Part shown: piece by piece, positions 2,943 to 11,830 of the stretch | How the letters are laid out: every line of letters starts with the position of its first letter | Position numbering within the stretch: position 1 is the stretch's first letter | Assembly: GCA_030753015.1 (NCBI GenBank) | Contig: JASMDC010000061.1 | Location: 1-16,687 of the forward strand | Source of the DNA: Candidatus Undinarchaeales archaeon | GTDB taxonomy: Archaea > SpSt-1190 > JASMDC01 | Length of the DNA stretch: 16,687 nucleotides | Direction: 5' to 3' | Position numbers and translations under genes: made by a program | The notes under the pieces: generated by a model | Databases searched by the model: none | The model's input: the letters and a program-made list of their open reading frames with translations, nothing else | What the model was told of the DNA's origin: nothing

Positions 2943-4202
2943 CTACTGGTTCTGGCTCCATTGCTGGAACTGGTCCGCCCACTCGCCCTGGCTTGTCGGC
3001 TCGTCGGGCGGGGGCTCGTACGAGGGCTGCTCCTCCCGTGGCTCGTTCGACCCGGTCATCGCCTTCACCCGCGTGATCAGGTCCTTGATGCGCGGCATCT
3101 CCACGCCGGCCAGCAGGATGACCACCTCGAACCGGTCATAGCTGGAGATCACGGCGTTCCCCCAGCGCACGGTGCCGCCGGCGCCATCGTTGAGCTGGCT
3201 CCCTAGCCAGCTGATGGCCTCGTGGAGCTCGGACACCTTGGGCGAGGAGGGGCCGGCGACGATGAGGGCCGCCGAGCGTGCGCTCGTGTACACCGCCTGG
3301 GTCGTCGTCCCCTGGAGCACCGCCATCTGGACCAGGTTGGTCAGGCTGGAGCGCGAGTTGCCCTCGGCGTCCACGGGCGATTCTGCCCGGCCCAGGCAGC
3401 ACAGCACTCCGTAGTCGCTGGTCTTGGCCTCGAGGATGGTGTTCTTCAGGTCCGTGGAGTCCATGACCAGGTCCTGCTCCTGTGAGATGGGCAGGCCCGA
3501 GATGGTCAGCAGCTTGATCTGCTTGAGGATCTCCCGGTTGATCTGGTCGAAGATCTCGTTGATACCCACCCGACCTCGCACCTGGGTCGGGATGCGCTCG
3601 TAGAACCACTCGTTATCGGCGATGATGAGCCCGTCCAGACGGGGCAGGAGGTTCTTCATCCCCCAGAGGGCGTTCTCCTCGTACCGGCCGCTCTCGTACC
3701 CGAAGGGCAGCAGCCCGATGCCGATTTTGACGAAGTCGTTGGGATTGACTACGTGGCGCTGGATGAACACCTCGTCGATTATGTCCGCCGCTACCGGCGA
3801 GCACCCGCATCCGGAGCCACCGCCGAGCGAGGTGACGATGAAGCAGAAGTGGGGCATGATGCCGCGGCCGAGGGTGTTGACGGTGATGGTGTTGCGGATG
3901 AGGTCGCGGTTGGCGTTGGCAATGCCCTTGCAGTACTCGGGATTGCCGCCGCACCCCTTGCCGCCGCCGATGAGGATCCGCGACTCCTCGGGGATGTGGA
4001 GGATGTTGAGGTCGCGGATATTGGTGTTCAGGGCCACCGAAGAGAAGTAATCGTCCACCCGCAGGGTGGATATGCCCATGGAGCGGGCGAAGGTCAGCAT
4101 CTGGCTGACGGTCGAGCGTTGGAACTCGGCCACGGCGTCGAGCACGCGGGTGCCCCCCTGACCCAGCCCCATTGCGAATATCTGACTTCCTGAGACGTCC
4201 AT
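2943..4202 (-). CDS. Divergent FtsZ/tubulin-superfamily GTPase
   Basis: A 419-aa tubulin-superfamily protein. Visible motifs in order: T1 G12-LGQGG; T2 LNTNIRDL; T3 GGGKGCGGNPE; G-box G127-GGSGCG (canonical GGGTGTG); T5 LLPFGYESGR; the F-x3-N of helix H7 (N222); and the T7 loop V-M-D248-STD251-L, which retains both catalytic-loop aspartates of FtsZ (NxDxxD). It should therefore bind and hydrolyse GTP as a head-to-tail polymer. Cysteines at 84, 132 and 134 lie in the nucleotide loops, unusual for FtsZ. The C-terminal tail after ~385 is Pro/Glu/Gln-rich and ends in a Trp/Gln motif shared with the TadC-like protein at 11843. ATG 4202 is preferred over GTG 4211 because GGGAAGTG precedes it by 6 nt. 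Eighteen nt separate it from the upstream paralogue. It is too divergent to be called the division FtsZ. Confidence 0.88.
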   Translation of the reverse strand: MDVSGSQIFAMGLGQGGTRVLDAVAEFQRSTVSQMLTFARSMGISTLRVDDYFSSVALNTNIRDLNILHIPEESRILIGGGKGCGGNPEYCKGIANANRDLIRNTITVNTLGRGIMPHFCFIVTSLGGGSGCGCSPVAADIIDEVFIQRHVVNPNDFVKIGIGLLPFGYESGRYEENALWGMKNLLPRLDGLIIADNEWFYERIPTQVRGRVGINEIFDQINREILKQIKLLTISGLPISQEQDLVMDSTDLKNTILEAKTSDYGVLCCLGRAESPVDAEGNSRSSLTNLVQMAVLQGTTTQAVYTSARSAALIVAGPSSPKVSELHEAISWLGSQLNDGAGGTVRWGNAVISSYDRFEVVILLAGVEMPRIKDLITRVKAMTGSNEPREEQPSYEPPPDEPTSQGEWADQFQQWSQNQ

Positions 4203-4220
4203 GATGCACACTTCCCGTTA

Positions 4221-5216
4221 TCAGCCGAACAGGTCCTCCTCCAGCGTCTTCTTCGTGGGCGCGGCCCGCTCGCCGAAGCGGACGTCCTCGAGCTCGCCCA
4301 TTAGATCGGCCTCGAGGCTGACGGCCTTGCGACCCTCCTGTTCAGCCCCTGCACGGACCTCCATGAAATAATTATATATCTTCTGATATCGCGGCCGGAA
4401 CGTTAGGGCGAACAGCTCGTAGTCCGGAGTAGGCGCGACGAAGGTGCGCACGCTCGGGATGATACCGGGTGGCTCCTTGGGCATGCACACGTAAGAGAAC
4501 GAGTTATCGGTGATGGAGAAGTCGGAAGCGCACACGTTCTGGAGGATGGCCGTGTTCATGTCGAGGCCCTGGAGGCTTTCTGCGAACGACGGGACGCACA
4601 GTTCGCCGGTGAGGCCGTCCGAGGCCAGGTACTGGCGCATGCCGTACGTGCCGTTGAGACCCCTGAGGATGTCGAGCATGTACTGGACGAAGGTGTCCAT
4701 GCGCTCGAACGCCGTGTGCTGGTCGACCGCCTTTACTTTGCTCGTCAGTCGCTCCTCTTCGAGCACGATGACCATGTCAGCGGTCTCTTTCATGTCAACC
4801 ATCGTGGCGACGAGGTTGCGCTTGGCGGGCATGGGGTACTCCTTCATGTAGGGGAGGAGGATCACGGCACAGAGGAAGGCGTCGGGCTGGTACTGGCGGA
4901 TGCGCTCGAAGGCGTGGGCGGCCAGTGCCCCGTACTCAGTCGTGGGATTGAGCAGTGCCACGCTCATGCCATCGGTCATGTCCAGGGAGTGGTCCACCCA
5001 GTCCCGGACCAGCCCCATCTTGAAGTCGCGCTTGCTGGTATCGTCGGAGATCTCGATCTTGAGGCATTTGTTGCGGTCGAACTCCTTGAGATCACTGATG
5101 CTCGCCGAGGCCAGGGCAATGGGTGCGCGATGGCGCTCGGTGTACCGCTCGATCCACGTGGTACCGAAGGTCCCGAGCCCGATTAGGTTCACAGCACTCC
5201 CTCCACCGAATGCCAT
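4221..5216 (-). CDS. Degenerate tubulin/FtsZ-like protein, partner of the downstream GTPase
   Basis: About 331 aa. The N-terminal strand and glycine loop (VNLIGLGTFGTTW, residues 9-21) align with the T1 loop of its neighbour, and the central ILLPYMKEYP ... ADMVIVLEEERL matches the T5 to H6 region of FtsZ. The G-box is absent: its position reads NPTTEYGALAAHAF. No NxDxxD T7 motif is visible. It is thus probably a tubulin-fold protein unable to hydrolyse GTP, encoded just upstream of an intact one, which suggests a regulatory or heterodimer role. The C-terminus is charged (KKTLEEDLFG). Start ATG 5216 puts strand 1 near the N-terminus as in the paralogue; ATG 5249 would add 11 residues. Family membership rests on alignment by eye. 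Confidence 0.7.
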   Translation of the reverse strand: MAFGGGSAVNLIGLGTFGTTWIERYTERHRAPIALASASISDLKEFDRNKCLKIEISDDTSKRDFKMGLVRDWVDHSLDMTDGMSVALLNPTTEYGALAAHAFERIRQYQPDAFLCAVILLPYMKEYPMPAKRNLVATMVDMKETADMVIVLEEERLTSKVKAVDQHTAFERMDTFVQYMLDILRGLNGTYGMRQYLASDGLTGELCVPSFAESLQGLDMNTAILQNVCASDFSITDNSFSYVCMPKEPPGIIPSVRTFVAPTPDYELFALTFRPRYQKIYNYFMEVRAGAEQEGRKAVSLEADLMGELEDVRFGERAAPTKKTLEEDLFG

Positions 5217-5290
5217 TGTGACACCAGCTAGCCTTTTATGTGCATCCATTCCCGGGCGAGATGCTGGTGTACCGGACCTGGTGATGACAT

Positions 5291-5403
5291 GTATCTGTTT
5301 AGATACGAGTGTAACCTAAATTAGTTACAAATGTACCCCTAAAGGGAGTATAGAAATATATTTATAGTTACAAATGTAACCTTATATTGGTTTCTGGTGT
5401 AAC
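5291..5403. promoter_or_regulatory. Palindrome array between tubulin-like operon and HEPN-like/MNT3 pair
   Basis: Sites of the form GTTAC-N4-GTAAC occur as one perfect copy (5367-5380, core AAAT) and as imperfect copies at 5302-5315, 5324-5337 and 5390-5403. Spacings are 22, 43 and 23 bp, i.e. a 22-bp register with one position empty. A separate 16-bp palindrome with GTATCT/AGATAC arms sits at 5291-5306. The sites flank the TATA box of the HEPN-like gene and reach its start codon, so autorepression by occlusion is likely. The design matches the array at 1820 but the arm sequence differs. The region also lies upstream of the divergent tubulin-like operon. Confidence 0.65.
5354..5366 (+). promoter_or_regulatory. 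TATA box of HEPN-like/MNT3 pair
   Basis: The AT-only stretch AAATATATTTATA is centred near 5360, giving an expected transcript start near 5386 and an 18-nt leader before ATG 5405. It directly abuts the perfect palindrome at 5367. Confidence 0.55.
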
Positions 5404-5404
5404 C

Positions 5405-5803
5405 ATGCAACCCGCATCCCACCGTGCAAGGATACGCGAGAGCGTCGATGTCATCGAGGAGAGCATCACCCGTGGGCTTGTGGAGCGTCAGCGTACCATC
5501 GGCTTTCACACATCCGTGTCGGCAGTGGACATGCTGGAGCTCTACCTCCACGAGCTGCATGTCATAGATCCGGGTGCTGTCCTCAAGCACGAGTGGTTCA
5601 CTTCTGAGCGGAGGATAGCTCAGCGGGTCCCCTGGAGCTTCGAAGGAAGGGACAAGATACTCCCTCTTCTCATCAGGATCGAGTCGCGTCGCAACCTCCT
5701 CTGTTACTCCACGCCCCGCGAGGAGCAGGTCGTTGAAGAGGTGCTGGTCGCATTCCAGGAACTGAGGAAGGTGTTCAGGAGGTTCGGGATCGATGGAATC
5801 TAA
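5405..5803 (+). CDS. HEPN-like partner protein of MNT3
   Basis: A 132-aa helical protein homologous to the one at 1931-2335 (shared RQR-x-IGF, AV[DN], R-x4-Y, VV-x-E, EL-[RK]). The putative HEPN catalytic segment reads R96-NLLC-Y101, again with Tyr where HEPN RNases have His. That conservation between divergent paralogues argues the Tyr is functional. Its stop overlaps the MNT3 start by 11 nt, so translation is coupled. ATG 5405 gives an N-terminus of similar length to the paralogue; TTG 5387 is the alternative and would coincide with the predicted transcript start. Likely toxin or sensor half of a two-gene module; the biochemical activity is not known. Confidence 0.7.
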   Translation: MQPASHRARIRESVDVIEESITRGLVERQRTIGFHTSVSAVDMLELYLHELHVIDPGAVLKHEWFTSERRIAQRVPWSFEGRDKILPLLIRIESRRNLLCYSTPREEQVVEEVLVAFQELRKVFRRFGIDGI

Positions 5804-6401
5804 GCTCATTGCATACGCTATGGACTTCACGTCCTTCTTCATCATGAACCTGCGCTACGTCGAGCGTGTGAGGAGGATCATCCTCTATGGGAGCGTTGCC
5901 CGGGGCTCCTCCGAGAATGGGAGCGACGTTGATCTCTTCGTCGACACGGACGAAGACCTCAGCGATGAGGTGGAGAGACTCAGGGACGAATTCTATAGGT
6001 CCGCCCGGTTCACGAAGCATTGGAGGCTCATGGGAGTGGAGAACGAGCTCCACGTTGTGACCGGGAAGCTCGACGAATGGCAGGACCTCAAGTCGGCCAT
6101 GGCGGTTCACGGGACCGTGCTCTACGGACCGTACACGGAGATGCGCTCTGGACGATTGGAGGCGATCGTCACATGGGACCCGGTTAAACCGGCCTCGTCC
6201 CGCGTATTGCTGAACAAACGGCTGTTCGGATTCAAACAGGAGGGGCGCATCTACAGCGGTCTTGTCGAACGGCTCACTGGCTCGAAGCTTGGGCCCAGAT
6301 GCATCCTTGTTCCGGCAGAACACCTTGGACGACTCATGCATGAGTTCGACCGCCTCGGACTGGTCGTGCGCGTCAGGCACATGCGTGAGCTGCCTAGCTA
6401 G
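5793..6401 (+). CDS. Minimal nucleotidyltransferase (MNT3) with extra C-terminal domain
   Basis: A 202-aa nucleotidyltransferase with G33-S34-VARG ... D45-V-D47 and a third acidic residue as Glu in the strand NELHVVTG. The N-terminal helix (AYAMDFTSFFIMNLRYVERV) aligns with that of MNT2. The C-terminal domain (LLNKRLFGFKQEGRIYSGL, then ILVPAEHLGRLMHEF) is shared with MNT1 and MNT2. Expected activity by family: transfer of AMP or another nucleotide to its HEPN-like partner. ATG 5793 lies inside the 3' end of the partner gene. It is convergent with the surface-protein gene that ends at 6411. Confidence 0.85.
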   Translation: MESKLIAYAMDFTSFFIMNLRYVERVRRIILYGSVARGSSENGSDVDLFVDTDEDLSDEVERLRDEFYRSARFTKHWRLMGVENELHVVTGKLDEWQDLKSAMAVHGTVLYGPYTEMRSGRLEAIVTWDPVKPASSRVLLNKRLFGFKQEGRIYSGLVERLTGSKLGPRCILVPAEHLGRLMHEFDRLGLVVRVRHMRELPS

Positions 6402-6410
6402 GCATCGCAG

Positions 6411-8258
6411 TTAGAATCCCACCCACTGCCGCATGATGCGCTTCCAGATGAACTTGCGGGCATGCTCTATCAATTTGAACCTGATGGTAACGTACATCAG
6501 GCTGCCGGTCACCGAGAACAGGATGAGCAGGAACAGTGTCCGCTGGCGGAGCCGGTTCACATCCACCGCGCAAGTGCCGTCCTCCTGACGGACGTTGTCG
6601 TTCATGATCCCCTGGAACGTCCCCAGTTCTTCACACGCCTGTGGTATGCAGACGTTGCTCTCGCAGTAGAAGCCATTGATGCACCCGCAGTCGCTGCAGC
6701 ACCGTGCCCGCTCCACCTCGAGGCAGAGGGTGTCGCCGCACTTGATGTCGTACGCTCGTCGAGGCGCGCTGGTGAGGGTGCCCTCGAAGCTCATACCCTC
6801 CTTGAAGCTCATTCCGTCGGGGAGCGACATCGCCAGCCAGTCATCCCCCTGGGGGAGGCGGATGCGCCATTCGCCGGCGTTCTTCGTCCTGTTCAAGATG
6901 CTTGGAACGGTGAAAGTGACGATCTGCTCCTTGACCAGCATGCCCTCGATGGGCGTTACCTTGATATCATTGCCGTGGACCGTGCCGTTGAGCGGGGCGA
7001 GGAGGGCGGAATCCGTGGCGTTCTCCATCTGCCATTCCACCAGTGACAGCACGCCGTCGGGATTAGCGGATAGCACGTCGGCCTCGCCGTAGGCCTTCAT
7101 GTCCTCGACCTCGTGCAATCGGAGCACGGCATGGCCCGAGCCATCGGACAGGAGGCTGAGTGTGACGTTCCGCCGGGCATGCGGCGGGTGGAGCACCTCG
7201 AGCCGGTGCTGGCCCCCGCGGTACAAGCTGCCGTCCACATCCACGTTCATGACCGCCTCGTTGTGCATGATGTACTTGAGCCCGGGGGTTGCCGGAGCGC
7301 GTGTCCGGTACGCCACCACCTTGCGCTCGCCTGCGCCGAGAGTGAGGTTGACTGAGAGGATATTACCCACGCCGGGGACGTACACCGGCGCCAGCGCGCC
7401 GCCCAGGTACTCCAGACGCGGGTTCGTCGGCTCATCGAGCCGGACCTTCACGAGCTGTCCCCCCAGGTTCACGAGGGTGAAGTTGACCTGGAAGCCCTCG
7501 CCCTGGACGATCTTGTCGGGCATCGACCGGCTCATGGACAGCTTCGGGCGCTCGGACGCCCAGGTGATGAGCGAGCGGCCGATGGGGAGCTTCTCGCGGA
7601 GCACGCACAGTCTCCTTGAGCAGTTCAGGCCGGGGACCACGTGGATACCGGGGGTTTCCACATCGAACTTGAAGATGAACCACGTGAAGTCGTCGAACCG
7701 CGAGCCGTTGATCTCCAGGGCATAGGGGAATACCTCTTGGTAGACGGCCTCCTGCGGCGCGGCGGCGGTGTACACCAGGTCGTGCCGGGAGTAGGGGCCG
7801 AAGGGCAGCTCCCGGGTGTGCAGTGCCACTTTCTCCTCCCGAATCCCTGCGGCCTCCCGCGCCAGGTCAGCGCCCATGACCGAGACGTTCATGGGCCCCA
7901 GATCCTCGCTCAAGTGGTTTGCCAGCCGGATGGTGGCGGTGCGCACCACCGTGTCGTTGGGTCCGAGGACCACCTTGTAGAGCACCTCGTCCACGGTCAC
8001 GGTAGTGAGGTCCTGGGACCAGATGTCAGCACTACCCGTGTCGTTCGCCGGTGCCTCGGTGGCGTTGGCGGGGGCGTCGGTGGTGTTCGTCGGTGGCTCG
8101 GTGACGTTGGCGGGGGCGTCGGTGGTGTTCGTCGGTGGCTCGGTGACGTTGGCAGGGAGGTCAGTGGCGTTGACGTCTGCTGTCCCGTTGTCCACCTGGG
8201 CAGCTGTCAGTGACAGGAGGAGTAGGACCATCACAAGGAGTATCGTCGTGCGCGCCAT
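6411..8258 (-). CDS. Large surface protein with glyco-stalk, Cys-rich domain and C-terminal anchor
   Basis: 615 aa. A signal peptide (MARTTILLVMVLLLLSLTAAQ) is followed by a Thr/Pro/Asn low-complexity stalk with eight N-x-T sequons in about 55 residues, which predicts heavy N-glycosylation. Beta-rich extracellular sequence follows, then a segment with ten cysteines (about 507-563), one membrane helix (about 574-592) and a basic 23-residue cytoplasmic tail beginning RFK and ending WVGF. ATG 8258 is the start: it lies 2 nt past the stop of the upstream gene and just after GGGTGGTGATC, a near-perfect archaeal SD. A longer reading frame exists but would hide the signal peptide. It forms an operon with the other surface protein and lies divergent to the secretion ATPase genes. 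Family not recognised. Confidence 0.82.
   Translation of the reverse strand: MARTTILLVMVLLLLSLTAAQVDNGTADVNATDLPANVTEPPTNTTDAPANVTEPPTNTTDAPANATEAPANDTGSADIWSQDLTTVTVDEVLYKVVLGPNDTVVRTATIRLANHLSEDLGPMNVSVMGADLAREAAGIREEKVALHTRELPFGPYSRHDLVYTAAAPQEAVYQEVFPYALEINGSRFDDFTWFIFKFDVETPGIHVVPGLNCSRRLCVLREKLPIGRSLITWASERPKLSMSRSMPDKIVQGEGFQVNFTLVNLGGQLVKVRLDEPTNPRLEYLGGALAPVYVPGVGNILSVNLTLGAGERKVVAYRTRAPATPGLKYIMHNEAVMNVDVDGSLYRGGQHRLEVLHPPHARRNVTLSLLSDGSGHAVLRLHEVEDMKAYGEADVLSANPDGVLSLVEWQMENATDSALLAPLNGTVHGNDIKVTPIEGMLVKEQIVTFTVPSILNRTKNAGEWRIRLPQGDDWLAMSLPDGMSFKEGMSFEGTLTSAPRRAYDIKCGDTLCLEVERARCCSDCGCINGFYCESNVCIPQACEELGTFQGIMNDNVRQEDGTCAVDVNRLRQRTLFLLILFSVTGSLMYVTIRFKLIEHARKFIWKRIMRQWVGF
8067..8150. 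repeat. Two perfect 42-bp tandem repeats in the glyco-stalk
   Basis: Units 8067-8108 and 8109-8150 are identical and encode NVTEPPTNTTDAPA-type 14-residue blocks, two N-x-T sequons each. Partial copies flank both sides. DNA-level identity implies recent duplication and probable length variation between strains. Confidence 0.85.
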
Positions 8259-8260
8259 GA

Positions 8261-9826
8261 TCACCACCCCAGGTACCAGTAGGCCTCCTCGAACCGCTTG
8301 ACGTAATCCGTGGGCGTGTGTCGCCTGAGGTTCTTCGACTCGACCACGAACTTGAACCGCGTGATACTGCTCCCACCACCGATGCGCCATCTAACGAAGA
8401 ACAGGAACGAGGCGAAGGCGAAAGCGAACGATACTGCCATGAAGGTGCACTCGAACCCGTAGATCTCGCAAACGAGACCGGCGGGATGGAGGGTGACAGG
8501 GAAGGACTCGTTACCCGCCTCGAACCCACGGTAGTAGATTCGGCCGATGAGGTTGCATGCGAGTGGATCACGTGTAGCGGGCGTGCTCACATTGCACCGG
8601 TCGATACCGTACTCGCCCACATCGCACCGTCGGTCGAGCAACGTCTCGTTCCCCCCGCAGCGAAGGAAGAGCTCATAGGGAAGGCCCGGGTTTGTGAGAC
8701 TTGTGAACACGATTGTGCTGGCGTTCCCCTCGACGTCCTTTGTCACGGGTCGGAACTGCTCGAAACCCGGTGAGAACTCCCTCACCTCGATCTCCAGTGC
8801 CTCCTCCTGTTCGTCGCCGTCCGTGGAAAAGGTCACCAACCCCTCGTAGATGATCCTGCCCTCGTAGTCATGGAGGGGCAGGCGACCCAGGTCTAGGGGA
8901 CACGTGATCTTGTCGAGGACGTTGGTACAGAGCTGGTCCACCGAGAAGGTTTGGTTTACATAGGCCGTGTTGTTCCATGTGAGCTGGACCGAGATCGTGT
9001 TGTCCCGTCTGAGTATATCGTTCCACTTCTCGAGGGTCGTGTTGACGACCACGGGATCGTACTGGTTCACGAGCCGGGTGTAGTTGGTCAGGGTGAACAG
9101 GGGGTCTTCTGCGAACACGACCGCGAAGGGTGTCTCCAGGTAATCGACGATGCGAGCGCCCGACACTATCTCGAGGCGCGCCGTGTACCGTCCGCGCTCG
9201 TCGGGCACGTCCACGCTCACCGCGTGCCGGATGCTGCCCTGCATCTCACAGCTGAGGTCGATCGGCTGGTGGGAGCGGGCCACTACCTTCCGACCCGGTC
9301 CGAGCACGGATAGGGTCGCGTTGTAGCTCACCCCGTGCTCGGGGCGCCGGATGGTGTAGTCGAGATAGAGCTGCTCTCCAGGACCGAAGATATCCTTGGT
9401 CAGGCCCGCCTCGAGCTCGGTGTTGACGAAGAACACGGTGTGGATGTTGAAGGCGATCGACTCGGACACGGGGGATGTGACGTCGTAGGTGAAGTAGAGG
9501 GTGTGGTCGCCGGGGGTGCTGCATAGCGGGGCCTTCGTCATGATGGTGAACGCCCGCTCAATGTCCTTGCGCACCTCGAGCTTGGGCAGGCCGCCCGGAT
9601 AATCGGTCCCCCAGTGGTACCGGGCGTTCGTGCCGTTCTTCCGGTTGGCGATGCCGTACACGGGCTCGTCGATGAGACCGCGTACCGTGACCTTGTGGAC
9701 GCCCTGGTCACCGGGAAGGAGCACATGGTGGACGTTCTGCACATCGATGATGACCTGCTCGCCCGCAGAGACGCTCGCTAAGCACAGCGCGCACACGAGA
9801 ACGAGAGCAAGAAGCTTGGAAGGCAA
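8261..9826 (-). CDS. Surface protein, beta-rich ectodomain with C-terminal membrane anchor
   Basis: 521 aa. A signal peptide (KLLALVLVCALCLASVSAG) is followed by about 430 residues of alternating strands typical of stacked Ig-like or beta-sandwich domains, with several N-x-[ST] sequons and paired cysteines. A membrane helix (about 460-478, FMAVSFAFAFASFLFFV) precedes a 43-residue basic cytoplasmic tail containing TRFKFVV and ending YLGW. The tail resembles that of the downstream partner. The start is a TTG at 9826, about 30 nt from a TATA box shared with the divergent ATPase gene; no ATG or GTG would keep a full signal peptide. Likely a dedicated membrane partner of the adjacent Tad-like machine, by position only. 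Confidence 0.8.
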   Translation of the reverse strand: MPSKLLALVLVCALCLASVSAGEQVIIDVQNVHHVLLPGDQGVHKVTVRGLIDEPVYGIANRKNGTNARYHWGTDYPGGLPKLEVRKDIERAFTIMTKAPLCSTPGDHTLYFTYDVTSPVSESIAFNIHTVFFVNTELEAGLTKDIFGPGEQLYLDYTIRRPEHGVSYNATLSVLGPGRKVVARSHQPIDLSCEMQGSIRHAVSVDVPDERGRYTARLEIVSGARIVDYLETPFAVVFAEDPLFTLTNYTRLVNQYDPVVVNTTLEKWNDILRRDNTISVQLTWNNTAYVNQTFSVDQLCTNVLDKITCPLDLGRLPLHDYEGRIIYEGLVTFSTDGDEQEEALEIEVREFSPGFEQFRPVTKDVEGNASTIVFTSLTNPGLPYELFLRCGGNETLLDRRCDVGEYGIDRCNVSTPATRDPLACNLIGRIYYRGFEAGNESFPVTLHPAGLVCEIYGFECTFMAVSFAFAFASFLFFVRWRIGGGSSITRFKFVVESKNLRRHTPTDYVKRFEEAYWYLGW

Positions 9827-9883: not shown

Positions 9884-11830
9884 ATGGCCACCCTGAAGCT
9901 CGACAGGAACCGGTGCACGAAGTGCGGGAAGTGCGTTGTCGCCTGTCCGAACAATGCCATCGTCATGCGGAACTTCCCGGCGTTCTGCAAGCACTGTGAG
10001 CTCAAGGCCGCACCGTGCTACCAGGCCTGTCCGCTGGGCGCCATCGCGGACGTCGGCAACGGTGTGCTCAAGGTGGACGTGAACCGCTGCGATCCCTACC
10101 AGTGCAAGAAGGAGTGCCAGAAGTGGTGCCAGTGGGACGGCGTGTTCGTGTTCGGCGACAAGGCCAAGAAGTGCGACCTGTGCTACGACTTCCAGAACCA
10201 GCCGAACTTCGTTCCCAAGTGCATCGAGGTGTGTGACGCCAAGGCCATCACCACCGACCTCATGCAGGAGGTCGTGCTCGACTACGCGGGATGGAGCGCT
10301 GAGACCATCCCCCAGGAGATCATCGCAGAGGTCCTCCAGAGCTTCACCTACGGCCAGGTCGTCAAGGTGCATGGCCAGCCGGTCCCGTACTACTACGTCA
10401 ACTCGCTGCCCCAGCTCACTGACTGGGCCCAGACCAAGCTCCTGGGTCTCACCATCAAGAAGTACATCGACACCGGCAAGGCGGACCAGGACCCCTTCTC
10501 CTCGCTGATGATGATCATGCGCAAGTCCGCCCAGTGGGTGGGCACCAGCGTGGACGAGAACCTGCTCAAGGAGCTTGCCAACATCGCTCTCATGAACACG
10601 AAGGGCTATGGGCCCTTCGACATCCTGCTTGAGGACGACCAGCTGGAGGAGGTGATGTGCATCGGCCTCGGAAAGGAGCGGCCGATGTATGTCTACCACC
10701 GCGAGTACGGGATGCTGCGTACCAACCTATTCTTCCCCGAGGAATACATGGACTTCACCACGGACCCGCCGGAGAAGAAGTCCGGCGAGGAGGTCCTGTG
10801 GAAGATCATCGAGAAGATGATCGAGCCTATGGGAGAGCGCATCGACCGCCAGCACCCCCGCGTAAACGCGCAGCTGCCGGACGGCTCCCGTCTCCATGCG
10901 TGCATCAAGCCCATGGGATTCTCCGGACCGTCGGTGACGATCCGAAAGTTCCGGGCCGCACCGTTCTCGCCCATCGACACCATCAGGTTCAACACAATCT
11001 CCCTGGAGGCCGTGGTGTATTGCTGGATCGCAATGGAGAGCGAGATCTCGATGATCGTGGCAGGCAACACCGGTTCCGGCAAGACCACCTCGCTCAACGC
11101 CTTCTCCACATTCATCCCTCCCGAGGAGCGCATCCTCATCCTCGAATCGACGCCCGAAATCAATCTGCCCCACCCGCACAAGGCACGTCTGGTCACCGTC
11201 AACAACGCGGACCCGCCCATAGGCATGCAGGACATCATCGAGGACACGCTACGTATGCGGCCCGACCGCGTGGTAGTAGGAGAGGTCCGGAGCGGTGCAG
11301 AGGCACAGGCCTTCATGAACTCGGTCCTGGCCGGTCAGGCCCGCGGCTCAATGTGCACATTCCACGCACAGGACGCCATTTCGGTCGTAAAGCGCATGAA
11401 GAACCCGCCTATGAACATCTCACCGCTCGACCTGCAGGTCCTGGACCTCATCTTCGTCCAGCGCCGCATGTCGCGGGTCGAGGGCAGCAAGCGGAAGCAG
11501 ATCCGTCGCGTCGTCGAGATCGCCGAGATCGACAAGCATCAGATGACCGACGAGGGCGTGCCGCTCATCCACACCATCTACCGCTACAATCCGGACACTG
11601 ACACCGTCGAGCGCGTGCACGCGGGGCTGTCCCCGCTGGAGGAGCGCATCTCCAAATACAACCTCTGCCTCGACGAGGGGCAATTCTGGGGCGAGGTGCA
11701 GGCCCGTACCAAGATGCTCAAGTACCTCATGGCCAACAACCTACGTGACATCAAGGTCTTCATGGACTACATCATCCGGTTCGGTACAGATCCTGCCTTC
11801 AAGCAGAGCATAATCAACATGGACATCTGA
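9884..11830 (+). CDS. tadA-like: TadA/GspE-type secretion ATPase fused to a four-cluster ferredoxin domain
   Basis: 648 aa. Residues 1-125 hold 16 cysteines in four groups of four (11/14/17/21, 35/38/45/49, 69/74/78/82, 97/100/113/117). The first two end in CP, and the last has the CDLC ... C-x3-C-DAKAI form of HycB/DmsB electron-transfer subunits, so four [4Fe-4S] clusters are predicted. After a linker and N-terminal ATPase domain comes the secretion-ATPase core: Walker A G394-NTGSGKT, Asp-box region ILESTPEIN, Walker B-type RVVVGE467VR, and His box TFH494A. This family forms cytoplasmic hexamers that drive pilus assembly, archaellum rotation or secretion. ATG 9884 is chosen over TTG 9863 because of the TATA box 27 nt upstream and the ferredoxin start. 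The two platform genes follow in the same operon. All catalytic motifs look intact. Confidence 0.93.
   Translation: MATLKLDRNRCTKCGKCVVACPNNAIVMRNFPAFCKHCELKAAPCYQACPLGAIADVGNGVLKVDVNRCDPYQCKKECQKWCQWDGVFVFGDKAKKCDLCYDFQNQPNFVPKCIEVCDAKAITTDLMQEVVLDYAGWSAETIPQEIIAEVLQSFTYGQVVKVHGQPVPYYYVNSLPQLTDWAQTKLLGLTIKKYIDTGKADQDPFSSLMMIMRKSAQWVGTSVDENLLKELANIALMNTKGYGPFDILLEDDQLEEVMCIGLGKERPMYVYHREYGMLRTNLFFPEEYMDFTTDPPEKKSGEEVLWKIIEKMIEPMGERIDRQHPRVNAQLPDGSRLHACIKPMGFSGPSVTIRKFRAAPFSPIDTIRFNTISLEAVVYCWIAMESEISMIVAGNTGSGKTTSLNAFSTFIPPEERILILESTPEINLPHPHKARLVTVNNADPPIGMQDIIEDTLRMRPDRVVVGEVRSGAEAQAFMNSVLAGQARGSMCTFHAQDAISVVKRMKNPPMNISPLDLQVLDLIFVQRRMSRVEGSKRKQIRRVVEIAEIDKHQMTDEGVPLIHTIYRYNPDTDTVERVHAGLSPLEERISKYNLCLDEGQFWGEVQARTKMLKYLMANNLRDIKVFMDYIIRFGTDPAFKQSIINMDI

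Follow-up and report, generated by a model that had tools for sequence, protein, structure and literature searches.

The DNA analysed here, called the window below, is a stretch of 16,687 nucleotides (contig JASMDC010000061.1) from the genome of a Candidatus Undinarchaeales archaeon, and it contains a gene whose product joins a ferredoxin-like N-terminal domain to a motor ATPase (the Fd-ATPase; table 1). A sequence-only reading of this DNA had proposed that a front part with sixteen cysteines and a complete ATPase core lie in the same reading frame, and the open reading frame, the Pfam matches and the motor motifs bear this out.

Table 1. The Fd-ATPase gene, its parts, and neighbouring genes (nucleotide positions in the window)
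Feature	Position	Strand	Basis
Second large predicted exported protein, 615 aa, C-terminal TM segment, no family	6411..8258	-	ORF
Large predicted exported membrane protein, 521 aa, no family, divergent	8261..9826	-	ORF; no Pfam family
Fd-ATPase fusion, 648 aa, ATG start	9884..11830	+	ORF; Pfam, NCBIfam and PDB profile matches
N-terminal 4x[4Fe-4S] ferredoxin domain, residues 1-129	9884..10270	+	Pfam Fer4 and PDB profile matches
Cys group I, CX2CX2CX3C, C11-C21	9914..9946	+	sequence; conserved in relatives
Cys group II, CX2CX6CX3C, C35-C49	9986..10030	+	sequence and family alignment
Cys group III, CX4CX3CX3C, C69-C82	10088..10129	+	sequence; relatives mostly CX2CX2CX3C
Cys group IV, CX2CX12CX3C, C97-C117	10172..10234	+	sequence and family alignment
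Linker with conserved 'GW' (W137)	10286..10322	+	comparison with orthologues
GspE/TadA/FlaI-type hexameric motor ATPase, residues ~147-640	10322..11803	+	T2SSE; PDB 2oap, 4ii7
Walker A GNTGSGKT, residues 394-401	11063..11086	+	sequence motif
T2SSF/TadC-like membrane platform protein 1, 419 aa	11843..13102	+	Pfam T2SSF 2.8e-9
T2SSF/TadC-like membrane platform protein 2, 307 aa	13109..14032	+	Pfam T2SSF 3.9e-13
Flavodoxin-like protein, 143 aa	14621..15052	-	Pfam Flavodoxin_5 9.6e-8

The sixteen cysteines of the front domain (residues 11, 14, 17, 21 / 35, 38, 45, 49 / 69, 74, 78, 82 / 97, 100, 113, 117) form four groups whose spacing had been given as CX2-5CX2-11CX3C; this is nearly right, except that the gap of 12 in group IV lies beyond that range. 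Outside the ferredoxin domain there are five cysteines in the other 531 residues. Pfam Fer4 matches residues 6-26 (1.6e-7), and a profile of the N-terminal part matches the PDB chains of PsrB (2vpw_B, 9.4e-18), HycB3 and HycB4 (the latter 7qv7_B), FdnH (1kqf_B) and NarH (1q16_B), in agreement with the earlier assignment to the HycB/DmsB type. With DmsB, PsrB (NrfC), FdnH, NarH and HycB the domain shares the four cysteine groups with their 16 ligands and the signatures CxHC in group II and CDLC in group IV. NCBIfam matches of this part are to DmsB, NrfC and TtrB, all below the equivalog cut-offs (DmsB, TIGR02951: residues 35-131, 5.8e-7, 29.7 bits against a cut-off of 214). A zinc ribbon as the identity of the domain is ruled out by the Fer4 homology and the PDB profile matches.

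The motor part belongs to the Pfam T2SSE family (residues 303-538, 5.2e-32, 111.3 bits against a cut-off of 24.9), and its Walker A, Walker B, Asp box and His box are all present and intact (GNTGSGKT at 394, ESTPEI at 421, LRMRPDR..GEVR at 456-469 and TFHA at 492). Its relatives in the PDB include 2oap, a type II secretion system protein (1.1e-53), and FlaI, 4ii7 (1.6e-40). The NCBIfam matches of the motor part (archaellum FlaI, TadA, VirB11 and TrbB) are all below their equivalog cut-offs, and identity as the archaellum motor FlaI was rejected (NF058587, 230.2 bits against a cut-off of 550). A single-sequence AlphaFold model of the fusion was uninformative (mean pLDDT 34.7). These sequence comparisons identify the window protein as a type IV pilus/type II-like motor ATPase with a genuine four-cluster ferredoxin N-terminus of the DmsB/NarH/HycB kind.

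The two T2SSF/TadC platform genes that directly follow the ATPase, as in type IV pilus-like systems, are homologous to platform genes adjoining other fusions, and large exported proteins are also found beside other fusions. No pilin genes were recognised within the window; the genome has four prepilin peptidase (PF01478) matches above the cut-off, which makes a type IV pilus-like function of this system plausible. The flavodoxin-like protein is a possible redox partner of the ferredoxin. Elsewhere in the window, a CetZ/FtsZ-family tubulin gene adjoins a gene for a 342-aa protein without a Pfam match, which may be its partner (2943-4211 and 4221-5249, both on the minus strand); both lie near the pilus motor. 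There are also three nucleotidyltransferase-domain genes (391-951, 1928-2940 and 5387-6401), two of them preceded by an unassigned ORF of ~135 aa in what are possibly MNT/HEPN-like pairs, and a PIN-domain gene (1164-1793).

A survey of the fusion across archaea, which the sequence-only reading had recommended, found 41 ferredoxin-bearing Fd-ATPase sequences, one of them as two adjacent ORFs, in four archaeal phylum-level groups. Below, G000 is the window's genome and P1, P2 and P3 are the phyla of G321, G171 and G077, respectively. At least 21 genomes among the 87 searched in P1 have the fusion, the 19 searched in P2 have 13 fused genes plus the one that is split, and at least four fusions occur among 301 P3 genomes. 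The phyla of G254 (151 genomes) and G217 (23 genomes) gave no match at strict thresholds, and no fusion was seen, at the thresholds used, in nine other genomes of the window genome's class. When genome contigs were searched with a profile from a two-sequence alignment, the matches were nearly all ferredoxins, plus one distant ATPase; a search of viral contigs gave three distant ATPase matches only. Because the same-frame fusion recurs across many unrelated genomes, a frameshift or assembly artefact can be dismissed as its source. The genomes of the P1-P3 carriers are small, mostly 0.4-1.5 Mb, which suggests that these are DPANN-type archaea.

G000 itself has 3.85 Mb, against 0.6-1.1 Mb in the nine other searched members of its class, with a contamination estimate of 5%, and a search for archaeal 16S found none; it is either an unusually large class member or a mixed bin. 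It carries a second fusion, a 50% identical paralogue on contig C40 with a Pro/Lys-rich extension of ~150 residues ahead of the ferredoxin. No flavodoxin or platform genes were recognised beside this copy, and a Nitro_FeMo-Co (dinitrogenase iron-molybdenum cofactor-like) gene lies ~3 kb upstream of it (L125:5897-6271). In the split P2 case, G137 (L163/L188), a ferredoxin of 125 aa and an ATPase of 427 aa are separate ORFs with a 19-nt overlap, and the gene of its sister G224 is fused, so that the split is either natural or a frameshift error. Open frames of ~1000-1140 aa in G010, G032 and G072 (L013, L012 and others) have two T2SSE ATPase cores in tandem in each polypeptide.

In DmsB/NarH-type subunits each cluster is held by one quartet of cysteines, three from one motif and the fourth from another: I1-3+IV4, IV1-3+I4, II1-3+III4 and III1-3+II4. 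We took this wiring from established knowledge of these subunits and not from coordinates, and scored each of the 16 ligand positions for 37 sequences that carry the ferredoxin; the four P3 sequences were judged by reading, and a truncated, stop-interrupted copy in G260 was left out. All 16 cysteines are kept in 27 of the 41 sequences (24 of the 37 tabulated and three of the four from P3). Among the 14 reduced sequences, 12 have lost exact unions of the expected quartets, which supports the wiring indirectly: I1-3+IV4 is missing from six (G109, G398, G145, G452, G454 and G455), I1-3+IV4 plus III1-3+II4 from four (G338, G456, G458 and G459), and II1-3+III4 from two (G242 and G296). The two irregular cases are G119 and G866 (P3), the latter without the whole of group III and with group II kept. 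In each of these 12 the fourth lost ligand comes from a different motif than the first three, and the ligand next to it within one motif is retained; group I and IV4 are ~80-100 residues apart. If four of the 16 positions were lost at random, they would make up one of these quartets with p = 0.0022, and four more among the remaining 12 would do so with p = 0.006; at least three distinct events of loss are required.

Since the losses are exact unions of ligand quartets, the pattern indicates that the clusters are real and have been lost one at a time, in accord with the wiring of DmsB/NarH-type subunits. Conservation of the cysteines, named in the sequence-only reading as something that would support it, is seen over homologues that are 30-50% identical; the cluster-wise co-loss adds to the evidence that the clusters are real, and the sequences show a fusion family under selection for its clusters. 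Two new conserved cysteines in 'VYECVKGVLCADGG' are common to the two-cluster ferredoxins (L170-L173; G456, G458, G459 and G338) and may form a novel metal or disulfide site.

In trees built from the ATPase core only (FastTree; 68 tips, 37 with the ferredoxin domain), the fusions and orthologues that lack the domain fall in one clade with support of 0.97. Parsimony on presence of the domain requires nine changes, against a mean of 22.6 for shuffled states, and if gains are weighted more heavily than losses, the domain is placed at the root and is then lost 13 times; an enlarged maximum likelihood tree (77 tips, 41 with the domain; an unfinished search, no supports) agrees, with 15 losses. The domain-less orthologues have their start at, or shortly ahead of, the 'LGW' segment that comes after the ferredoxin in the fusions (for example MLGWK... 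and MSLGWH...), as fits loss of a front domain. There was thus probably one ancestral fusion whose ferredoxin was later lost many times. Homologues without the cysteines in an otherwise conserved context had been named beforehand as a finding that would refute the proposal, and they do occur. In many orthologues the ferredoxin domain is missing although the ATPase-TadB-TadC-PAC2 operon is retained, which makes the ferredoxin accessory to the motor. The ferredoxin is probably not needed for the core motor, and the orthologues that lack it evidently function without one or use one in trans.

The gene order [Fd-]ATPase-TadB-TadC-PAC2 is common to fused P1, unfused P1 and P2 loci. The P2 loci usually also have a DUF192 gene ahead of the Fd-ATPase operon and a Flavin_Reduct gene behind it, near the PAC2-family, proteasome-chaperone-like gene; the Flavin_Reduct proteins at the operon ends (L176, L178-L185 and L189-L192) are 58-67% identical. 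In the P2 fusions that were checked, this gene shares the contig of the fusion at a distance of up to about 9 kb, G137 being the exception: there the fusion locus and the Flavin_Reduct gene both lie close to the ends of contigs. The P2 genome G059, with no ferredoxin on this ATPase, has the gene on a different contig. In P1 genomes any Flavin_Reduct homologues are distant ones located elsewhere in the genome. A strict co-occurrence of fusion and flavin reductase was rejected, as the gene was not found near the P1 or P3 fusions. Short proteins with one TM segment and pilin-like N-termini lie beside the P2 fusions; the three scanned had no Pfam match. At G089, G017, G119, G137 and probably G206 a second, ordinary T2SSE ATPase lies upstream, in several cases with platform genes of its own; these loci may thus encode a two-motor archaeal pilus system in which the Fd-ATPase is the second motor. 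Such tandem plain and ferredoxin motor loci are seen in L115, L177, L179 and L188.

In its complete core, its N-domains from ~147 and the two platform genes downstream, the window protein resembles archaeal GspE/FlaI/TadA-type T2SSE ATPases (2oap, 4ii7), but unlike them it bears a 4x[4Fe-4S] domain in front; unlike the DmsB, NarH and HycB subunits, its ferredoxin is fused to a mechanical ATPase and does not partner an oxidoreductase. Makarova et al. 2016 (PMC4858521) noted Cys-rich N-termini on archaeal T4P ATPases (subclade 4F; arCOG05558) and read them as possible disulfide bridges; their text makes no mention of ferredoxin, Fe-S, redox or DPANN. By description these proteins are like the fusion in combining a T4P motor with an extra Cys-bearing N-terminal domain. 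The zinc tetracysteine domain of bacterial EpsE/GspE (PMC5061722) is likewise a metal-binding cysteine module in a secretion ATPase, but it is one zinc site within the ATPase half, whereas the window protein has four N-terminal Fe-S clusters. The caution voiced earlier about annotated homologues was apt in that relatives exist, and no earlier report of a ferredoxin-motor fusion was found in the literature searched, which includes few subscription journals or preprints.

What these loci present, as far as sequence goes, is a fusion, an intact motor core, an operon of platform proteins, and cysteines kept or lost by whole-cluster sets. We tentatively favour, at somewhat less than even chances, the interpretation that the ferredoxin is a module that regulates a type IV pilus-like motor in response to redox state or iron. 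The motor hexamer would carry six ferredoxin domains on its N-terminal, cytoplasmic face, and these would exchange electrons with soluble carriers, namely the flavin-reductase-like protein in P2 and perhaps the flavodoxin in the window. The redox or assembly state of the ferredoxins would alter movement of the N-domains and hence motor activity, such that the motor would be active under anaerobic or iron-replete conditions and would halt upon oxidation or loss of the clusters. Since clusters and entire domains can be dispensed with, the module would modulate the motor rather than power it, and a regulatory addition fits the finding that motor and operon persist where the domain is gone. Against this interpretation, the flavin-reductase link is confined to one group, P2, and no flavodoxin or platform genes were recognised beside the second fusion copy of G000. 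The main rival, which we think rather unlikely, is that the [4Fe-4S] clusters do no redox work and only hold the N-terminal domain in shape, so that the platform proteins or a cytosolic partner can dock on it. Clusters have been dropped singly with the remainder kept, the two new conserved cysteines of the two-cluster forms look like a fold being re-stabilised, and an essential metal-binding cysteine domain is known in a related ATPase (zinc in EpsE/GspE, PMC5061722), all of which suit such a structural role; but four DmsB-type clusters are an expensive scaffold, most sequences keep all 16 ligands, and a flavin-reductase-like gene lies near almost every P2 fusion.

A filament motor directly coupled to cellular electron flow is unlikely in our estimation: reduced carriers would charge the ring of ferredoxins on the motor hexamer, and its charge state would decide between building, retraction and electron exchange, or else the electrons would be handed on where the pilus is anchored and would themselves decide the fate of the filament. 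It is improbable that the ferredoxin is a conduit that delivers electrons to the pilus base or removes them there and so links metabolism to an extracellular filament or membrane acceptor. Homologous four-cluster domains of the DmsB/HycB type do serve as wires in respiratory and hydrogenase complexes, yet lineages with only two or three clusters should have a broken linear wire, the whole domain is often lost, and no cytochrome or other membrane electron carrier was recognised in the subset of neighbouring genes scanned. Repeated loss of the domain would also be expected of a chance or vestigial fusion whose ferredoxin is inert baggage kept by descent, but ligands are strictly conserved at 30-40% overall identity and are lost in complete sets, so selection acts on the remaining clusters, and we give this explanation very little credence.

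Type IV pilus motors are known to be controlled by second messengers, partner proteins or metal sites. Under the favoured regulatory interpretation, redox or iron status would act directly on surface filaments through a four-cluster ferredoxin that is part of the motor itself. Within one motor family nature provides forms with four, three, two and no clusters, with which the function of each cluster can be tested. Many of the carriers are small-genome archaea of a kind thought to live attached to other cells, for which control of attachment would be relevant.
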